DNA of 64,000 nucleotides from Bacteroidales bacterium (GTDB lineage: Bacteria > Bacteroidota > Bacteroidia > Bacteroidales > JAIOZK01), in contig JAIOZK010000020.1 of assembly GCA_021740625.1 (NCBI GenBank), positions 1-64,000 of the forward strand, given 5' to 3'. A program made the translations under genes and the position numbers. Within the stretch, counting starts at the first letter, position 1. Each line of letters starts with the position of its first letter. The notes under the pieces are model-generated. The model was not told the DNA's origin and did no database searches. It worked only from the letters and a program-made list of their open reading frames with translations. Shown here piece after piece: positions 2,760 to 62,024 of this stretch.

Positions 2760-3665
2760 ATGTCGATAATAGTTGATAAGGTCACAAAGATTTACGGCAA
2801 GCAAAAAGCCCTGGATGAGGTGTCTTTCCAAATCGAAGCCGGTGAGATCGTAGGCCTGCTGGGGCCGAACGGAGCCGGAAAGTCCACCATCATGAAGATC
2901 ATCAGTTGCTTCATCCCTCCTACTTATGGCGAAGCAAGCGTATATGGATATGATGTGATGGAAGAACCCCTTGAGGTGCGGAAGCGCATCGGTTACCTGC
3001 CCGAAAACAATCCCCTCTACCTGGAAATGTATGTAAAGGAATACCTGGAATTTGTTGCCGGTATCCACAAACTCGACAATAAAAAGGCAAGGATTTCAGA
3101 GATGATAGAAACCACCGGTTTGCAGATCGAACAGGACAAAAAGATCGGCGCCCTTTCGAAAGGCTACCGGCAGCGTGTAGGACTGGCCCATGCCCTGATC
3201 CACGATCCGGAGGTGCTGATCCTGGACGAACCCACTACTGGCCTCGACCCCAACCAGATCATCGAGATACGGGAGCTCATACAAAAGATCGGAAAAGAAA
3301 AAACCGTGATGCTTTCGACACACATCATGCAGGAAGTGGAAGCCATTTGCGACCGGGCCATCATCATCAACAAAGGCAGGATCGTGGCCGATGACAAAAC
3401 GAAAAACCTGTCCACCACCCGTTTGGAAAATCAGGTTGTGAGCGTGGAATTCGATAAGGAAATTCCCGAAAAAGAATTGAAAAAACTCAAGGGCATCCTC
3501 AACCTGAAAAAGGTGGATGAAAAAACCTGGGTGATCGAATCGGCCCATGATACCGACATCCGTTCCGATCTCTTTAAATTTGCCGTTGAAAAGAGTTTAA
3601 CCGTACTCTCTCTCAACAAAGAAGCCCAAAGCCTGGAAAAAGTTTTCCAGAACCTGACCAAATAG
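2760..3665 (+). CDS. gldA: ABC transporter ATP-binding protein, gliding-motility GldA-like
   Basis: Walker A GPNGAGKST, signature LSKGYRQRVG, Walker B LILDEP; 301 aa. Confidence 0.85.
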   Translation: MSIIVDKVTKIYGKQKALDEVSFQIEAGEIVGLLGPNGAGKSTIMKIISCFIPPTYGEASVYGYDVMEEPLEVRKRIGYLPENNPLYLEMYVKEYLEFVAGIHKLDNKKARISEMIETTGLQIEQDKKIGALSKGYRQRVGLAHALIHDPEVLILDEPTTGLDPNQIIEIRELIQKIGKEKTVMLSTHIMQEVEAICDRAIIINKGRIVADDKTKNLSTTRLENQVVSVEFDKEIPEKELKKLKGILNLKKVDEKTWVIESAHDTDIRSDLFKFAVEKSLTVLSLNKEAQSLEKVFQNLTK

Positions 3666-3702
3666 TTTTATTTAAAAAAGATTTAAATAAAAAATTTTTC
3701 CT

Positions 3703-3710
3703 ACATTTGC
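3703..3710 (+). promoter_or_regulatory. Putative Bacteroidota -7 element TACATTTG
   Basis: Matches TAnnTTTG, immediately 5' of the riboswitch-like sequence. Confidence 0.6.
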
Positions 3711-3772
3711 GCCAGTGGACAGATTTGGGTGATTGCAACCACAGAAAAACAATGCTAAAGCACAGCCTTTTC
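3711..3772 (+). promoter_or_regulatory. SAM-II-like riboswitch upstream of metK
   Basis: GTGGACAGATTTGGGTGATTGCAACCACAGAAAAACAATGCTAAAGCA; contains SAM-II hallmarks: GTGG/CCAC P1, GATTT, TTGCAACCAC, A-rich linker, GCTAAAGC; 55 nt upstream of metK. Confidence 0.8.
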
Positions 3773-3826
3773 TGAAGCTCCAATCCCCTTATTTATTTTT
3801 TTATTCATTTATCAAAATCATTAGTT

Positions 3827-5116
3827 ATGGCATATTTATTTACATCGGAATCGGTTTCGGAAGGCCACCCGGACAAGGTTGCCGATCAGATATCGGATGC
3901 ATTGCTGGATGAATTGCTGAAACAGGATCCCAATAGCAAGGTAGCATGTGAAACAATGGTTACAACTGGACTGACCATTTGCAGCGGAGAAGTGAAAACG
4001 GAAGGTTATGTAGATGTTCAGAAGGTGGCCCGTGAGGTGATCAGACACATTGGGTATACCAACGCGGAATATCGCTTTGATTACAATTCCTGCGGAGTGA
4101 TATCAACCCTGCATGAGCAATCCCCTGACATATCCATGGGCGTTGAGCGCCAGAAGAAAACTGAGCAGGGGGCCGGCGACCAGGGCATGATGTTCGGATA
4201 CGCATGCACAGAAATGGACAACCTCATGCCCATGCCGATCGAAATAGCCCATATCCTGCTACAGGAACTGGCTGCCATCCGCAAGGAAGGCAAAAAGATG
4301 AAGTACCTGAGGCCCGATTCAAAATCCCAGGTTACCGTGGAATATGAGGATGACGGAACTCCTTTGAGAATTGATACCATCGTTTTATCCACACAACATG
4401 ATGAATTCGATACGGAAGAGAAGATGCTGGAAGTGATCCGGGAGGATATACTGAACATCCTGATACCAAGGGTTAAAAAAAACATTCCGGCCAGGGTAAA
4501 AAAGCTTTTCAAAAATGATTTCAAACTTTACGTGAATCCTACCGGGAAGTTCGTGATCGGAGGTCCTCACGGCGACACCGGGCTCACGGGAAGAAAGATC
4601 ATCGTTGATACTTACGGTGGTAGAGGTGCTCATGGCGGTGGCGCTTTTTCCGGGAAAGACTCCTCCAAGGTAGACCGTTCAGCAGCATACGCAGCCAGGC
4701 ACATTGCCAAGAATATGGTAGCTTCCGGAGTCGCCGACGAGGTCATGGTTCAAATTGCCTATGCAATCGGCATTGCGGAACCGGTGGGCGTTTTCGTGAA
4801 TAGCTTTAAAACAGCCAGGGTAAAAGATGCATCGGGAAAGATCATGTCGGACGGGGAGATCGCCAAAAAGATCGATAAGATCTTTGACCTTCGCCCTTAT
4901 GCCATCATCAAACGGCTTGGACTCAGAAATCCCATCTTCGAAAGAACAGCCAGTTATGGCCATTTCGGTCGCGATCATTATACCGAAGATGTGGAAGTAA
5001 CCTACAAAAGCAAGGATACTTTCAGCAAGAACGGCAAAAACTATAAAAAGGTTGAATTTTTTGCCTGGGAGAAACTGGATTATGTGGATAAGATCAAAAA
5101 GGCTTTCGGGCTTTAG
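3827..5116 (+). CDS. metK: S-adenosylmethionine synthase
   Basis: [40 protein letters not shown]; 429 aa. Confidence 0.97.
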
Positions 5117-5132: not shown

Positions 5133-5236
5133 TTTAACCGCAAAGTACGCAGTATTTTTGCAAAGTACGCAAAGACAATATATTGGATGATGTGATGTTG
5201 CGATCATTACTACCTCTTTGCGTATTTGCGGTTAAA
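5133..5236. repeat. Dispersed intergenic inverted repeat TTTAACCGCAAA ... TTTGCGGTTAAA
   Basis: 12-bp perfect arms at 5133-5144 and 5225-5236; related copy at 61941-62024. Confidence 0.85.
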
Positions 5237-5247
5237 CAAATAATACC

Positions 5248-61940: not shown

Positions 61941-62024
61941 TTAACCGCAGAGGGCACAGAGAAGGCGCAAGGTACGCAAGGCTTCTTTGCGCTCTTTGCA
62001 AAACCTTTGCGAACTTTGCGGTTC
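61941..62024. repeat. Second copy of the TTAACCGCA...TTTGCGGTT intergenic inverted repeat
   Basis: TTAACCGCAGAGGGCACAGAG ... GAACTTTGCGGTTCAA. Confidence 0.75.

Follow-up and report, generated by a model that had tools for sequence, protein, structure and literature searches.

A SAM-II riboswitch in a Bacteroidales metK leader and its possible action through the start codon

Comparison of more than 100 relatives suggests that the SAM-II riboswitch upstream of metK in Bacteroidota turns the gene off by covering its start codon and not a ribosome-binding sequence, which is absent in these bacteria. The element analyzed here lies in a stretch of 64,000 nucleotides from the genome of a Bacteroidales bacterium (contig JAIOZK010000020.1), referred to below as the window. 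That it is a SAM-II riboswitch repressing metK by a translational mechanism is regarded as fairly probable, with no insistence on the exact pairing, in the window itself, of the downstream strand termed segment D. The aptamer class has been in print for Bacteroidota since 2007 and its identification is by itself routine; the new part is the expression platform. No description of a start-covering platform for these riboswitches was found among the openly accessible papers searched.

When the whole window was searched with Rfam cmscan, the sole match over threshold was RF01726 (SAM-II, long loops), with all model positions covered (Table 1), and this copy is also the one match over the cut-off in the 4.0-Mb genome. 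The aptamer stands directly upstream of metK, the ATG of which follows after 59 nt. An earlier note on this DNA had proposed a SAM-II-like element in a metK leader from the landmarks GTGG, CCAC, TTGC, GCTAA and an A-rich linker; all of these are found in the sequence, and the RF01726 score of 56.7 bits together with the TIGR01034 assignment of metK bears the proposal out. Alphaproteobacterial SAM-II elements (RF00521, SAM_alpha), for which the crystal structure of a metX element is available, consist of P1 and an H-type pseudoknot with a TTGCAA..C core and a GCTAA tail, and the window element has these in common with them. The RF00521 covariance model, which the earlier note had named for checking the element, nevertheless found no match at the position of the element even at E <= 10, the fitting model being RF01726, and the SAM-V model gave none in 3600-3900 at E <= 1. 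The element shows the testable defining features of the RF01726 family; it almost certainly belongs to the SAM-II class and is a predicted aptamer of SAM. It resembles the long-loop SAM-II elements of Weinberg et al. (2010) in sequence, structure, phylum and gene (metK), without essential difference; the window copy and most of its order have the short loop, and long loop inserts occur in genomes of the class that are farther removed, a Flavobacterium (L265) among them. A SAM-II element in a Bacteroidota metK leader, and with it the identity of this aptamer, is thus already known: Barrick & Breaker (2007; PMC2258182) reported SAM-II from Bacteroidetes, and the table of Weinberg et al. (2010) has the entry 'SAM-II long loops: Bacteroidetes, marine' (PMC2864571).

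Table 1. Positions of the riboswitch, promoter and gene features in the window
Feature	Position	Strand	Basis
Bacteroidota -7 promoter element TACATTTG (TAnnTTTG)	3702..3709	+	Sequence; position conserved in related leaders
SAM-II (RF01726) aptamer	3709..3768	+	cmscan 56.7 bits, cut-off 44, E 3.1e-8
P1 5' strand GTGG	3715..3718	+	Pairs with CCAC 3739-3742; varies in step in relatives
Aptamer strand GGGTGATTG, doubling as putative anti-aptamer strand	3727..3735	+	Complementary to 3781-3788; not significant in the window alone
Pseudoknot P2 5' strand GTG-A-TTGC	3729..3736	+	GTG 3729-3731, TTGC 3733-3736
P1 3' strand CCAC	3739..3742	+	Partner of GTGG 3715-3718
Linker strand CAGAAAA, predicted inner anti-aptamer helix	3742..3748	+	7-bp match with 3768-3774
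A-rich linker of aptamer	3745-3749	+	Sequence
Pseudoknot P2 3' strand GCTAA-AG-CAC	3754..3763	+	GCTAA 3754-3758 with TTGC; CAC 3761-3763 with GTG
Post-P2 strand TTTTCTG, predicted inner anti-aptamer helix	3768..3774	+	Pairs with 3742-3748
Segment D, putative anti-aptamer strand CAATCCCC	3781..3788	+	Leader MFE pairs with 3727-3735; family covariation
metK, methionine adenosyltransferase (SAM synthetase), 429 aa, gene predicted to be under control	3827..5116	+	NCBIfam TIGR01034, 521 bits, E 1.6e-156

RF01726 exceeded its cut-off in 63 of 99 relatives, most of them of different families, in 276 of 393 genomes of the order and in 63 of 393 genomes sampled across the phylum, and nearly all of these elements lie directly upstream of metK. 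Among 80 named metK loci, 44 carry the aptamer, from Bacteroides, Lentimicrobiaceae and Marinilabiliaceae through to Flavobacterium; in Hymenobacter and Pontibacter, also among these 80 loci, it was not seen. The two strands of P1 vary in step across relatives (GTGG/CCAC, GAGG/CCTC, GCGG/CCGC and ATGG/CCAT). A set of 168 non-redundant leaders was collected, in 164 of which the P2 5' strand contains TTGCAACC; the invariance of TTGC and GCTAA in this set is partly a product of the search design. The variable part of P2 (P2b; GTG/CAC in the window) covaries with the tail at z -5.3 over the 168 leaders. The absence of a covariance match, or of conservation of P1 and the pseudoknot in homologues, had been named in the earlier note as evidence that would count against the element; both were looked for and the element withstood the comparison. 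Separately, one genome carries two SAM-II copies with near-identical aptamers (L026, G084:C269; L035, G084:C228), and the gene after the L026 copy is without a metK-like start.

The -7 promoter element is placed so that the transcript is expected to begin at P1, with a predicted start at about 3714-3716. A TAnnTTTG motif occurs at most 30 nt upstream of P1 in 141 of the 168 related leaders (121/148 and 20/20), compared with 3 of 102 control stretches. The presence of TACATTTG had been recognized before and its conservation in relatives agrees with this, as does its placement with the proposal that transcription would start at about the 5' end of the aptamer; its coordinates had been given as 3703-3710, one position too far downstream. 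Upstream, in the same orientation at 2760-3665, lies the gene for GldA, which is the ATP-binding subunit of an ABC transporter associated with gliding (TIGR03522 at 446 bits, over the cut-off). Just past metK, 5134-5245 holds an inverted repeat (TTTAACCGCAAAGTACGCA ... TTTGCGTATTTGCGGTTAAA) that contains GCAAAGTACGCAAAG units and looks like a dispersed palindromic repeat, with related units at 61966-61981 and 62005-62020.

Segment D, located downstream of the pseudoknot, is predicted to pair with the 5' half of the aptamer. Pairing was assessed from predicted duplex energies, the true partner strands being compared with partners permuted among leaders, and the 121 GTGG-type (Bacteroidales-type) leaders with 45-115 nt from pseudoknot to AUG were used. 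In these leaders the pairing reached z of about -12, a value which, like all of the permutation z values reported here, overstates significance because lineages share history and are not independent. A first run on 134 leaders, some of them GAGG-type, gave -14.85 versus -12.42 kcal/mol (z -12.6), with z -0.5 for the reversed strand, and a strict set of 43 leaders with dissimilar D gave z -8.3. An inner helix between the A-rich linker and the post-P2 sequence is similarly indicated (z -8.7; reversed control -0.8). Individual examples of the pairing of the aptamer with D are GCTTG/CAAGC in L038, GAGAT/ATCTC in L028 and GGATG/CATCC in L044 and L046. On the strength of these permutation tests and examples, the predicted anti-aptamer hairpin, which is incompatible with the SAM-bound fold, is a genuine trait of these riboswitches as a family; since the aptamer's 5' half and the linker pair alternatively with D and the post-pseudoknot sequence, the aptamer and the D-hairpin would be mutually exclusive. 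Distant GAGG-type leaders gave z -2.1 to -2.6 in the same tests (n = 20 sequences). Four of these distant relatives (L072, L077, L091 and L100) have a different anti-aptamer, in which GCTAAAG or ATGCTAAAA has its complement downstream of the pseudoknot, as CTTTAGC or TTTTAGCAT, often followed by GCAATC, which is complementary to the P2 5' strand.

A second pairing of segment D, with the metK start region (-8 to +12), is also indicated by covariation, at z -6.2 to -6.4 over all leaders, -4.1 in the strict set, -4.2 for ATGGN (GGN) starts and -3.3 for other starts. The corresponding controls gave -0.4 for D with codons +14 to +33, -1.0 for reversed D and +1.2 for the aptamer strand with the start; in the non-GGN families the reversed-D control itself reaches z -2.0. 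The signal is strongest in the ATGGG lineages, 50% of which have TTCCC, compared with 7-29% in other classes, and the clearest pairs of D with the start are TCCCATAA/TTATGGGA (L008), CCCATAG/CTATGGG (L021) and TCCCATTATTATTT/AAGTAGTTATGGGA (L171). Exact complementarity of 5-7-mers between D and the start was not significant (z 1.1-2.0). In 74% of leaders, D uses overlapping nucleotides for its pairings with the start and with the aptamer. The predicted energy required to open the start is 6.2 kcal/mol with D free, 4.1 kcal/mol with D masked, as when held by the aptamer strand, and 5.3 kcal/mol with shuffled D. The two competing pairings of D are supported by covariation; the logic of two states that they suggest is an inference.

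In three relatives (L204, 480-620; L236, 540-620; and L282), the metK AUG lies only 1-8 nt from the pseudoknot strand GCUAA, a direct-occlusion form that leaves no room for a terminator or for D. This form is rare, since a pattern search for an AUG beside the pseudoknot found one leader in 393 genomes of the order. These leaders bear on the alternative that SAM-II acts here on transcription, through a SAM-dependent terminator between the aptamer and metK, as most SAM-II elements elsewhere are held to do (PMC6061858; PMC2258182). The sequence TTATTTATTTTTTT does come after the window's anti-aptamer hairpin (GGGTGATTG/CAATCCCC), and at least five T in eight positions follow the helix between the aptamer strand and D in 50% of leaders, compared with 32% at matched positions. 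Runs of at least four T after the helix are, however, barely enriched (25% versus 20% background), and the T-rich stretch may instead serve the pairing of D with the A-rich region before the AUG. Furthermore, a pattern scan of 3500-4000 found no terminator-like site, no proper U-tract follows the anti-aptamer helix, and the three relatives above lack the space for one. The anti-aptamer hairpin would moreover form without SAM, so that, were it a terminator, SAM would end up promoting its own synthesis. A transcriptional mechanism is therefore considered unlikely.

A different use of the freed segment D, as a site at which Rho or a nuclease loads, would have SAM-II act by termination or mRNA decay. 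The platform around D is pyrimidine-rich and poor in G (9% G, about 30% C), as such a site would be; this alternative predicts neither the covariation of D with the start-codon region nor the existence of leaders without any D, and is considered very improbable. A translational mechanism is most likely in view of the D-start covariation, the energies of start opening, the leaders in which the AUG abuts the pseudoknot and the lack of Shine-Dalgarno sequences, and such a mechanism across the family is judged moderately probable from these comparisons.

The copy in the window conforms to this picture less clearly than the family. The anti-aptamer pairing is the lowest-energy fold of its leader, but the pairing of the aptamer strand with D is no better than in shuffles (z -0.1 to -0.9), thermodynamic folding of the leader alone is uninformative (z 0.2), and the pairing of D with the start is weak and not significant (z -0.2). 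The strongest downstream pairing of the window's D is with metK codons (-20.4 kcal/mol, p 0.03); pairing with later codons was rejected as a feature of the family, with z -0.4 for +14..+33 and only a weak -1.9 for +15..+60. When SAM is bound, D in the window may give the start no more than weak cover, or it may pair with early metK codons. These values, and a score of 56.7 bits that is below those of most relatives, might indicate a decayed, non-switching copy in which the aptamer is kept and the platform no longer works. The score is nevertheless well above the cut-off, no conserved core letter has been lost, P1, P2 and the promoter element are intact, and the anti-aptamer is strong (z -2 to -3) in L012, from the same-genus relative G001; such decay is considered very improbable.

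In the translational mechanism favored here, the riboswitch would repress metK, and hence SAM synthetase, when SAM is plentiful. Without SAM, the aptamer strand would hold D in the D-hairpin and leave the AUG open (ON). With SAM, the aptamer would be fixed and D released to pair over or near the AUG, so that initiation would fall (OFF). The start codon is the expected target given that Shine-Dalgarno sequences are not used in these bacteria; mRNAs of Bacteroidetes lack them, and initiation is tuned by the structure near the start (PMC6847099). The alphaproteobacterial SAM-II platform is mostly transcriptional and rarely acts by occlusion of the Shine-Dalgarno sequence (PMC6061858), and neither a terminator nor Shine-Dalgarno occlusion is evident here. 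SAM-V, whose pseudoknot fold is related to that of SAM-II and which is found in marine Bacteroidetes among others, is a translational OFF switch (PMC6061858) that covers the Shine-Dalgarno sequence, whereas here a separate downstream segment, D, is proposed to cover the AUG. A start-codon-covering platform is a supported hypothesis for the family. In its complete form, with a Shine-Dalgarno-free platform in which one strand alternates between aptamer and start codon so that SAM closes the AUG, and with a pseudoknot that abuts the AUG and acts directly in a few lineages, the proposal is given about an even chance.

To our knowledge, there has been little study of how riboswitches act where mRNAs, as in this phylum, have no Shine-Dalgarno sequences. 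If the proposed platform is correct, it would provide a testable rule, namely that one strand is common to the aptamer and the start codon, together with natural variants in which the AUG lies next to the pseudoknot. A further gain would be a compact translational switch, responsive to SAM, that could be used in laboratory Bacteroides.
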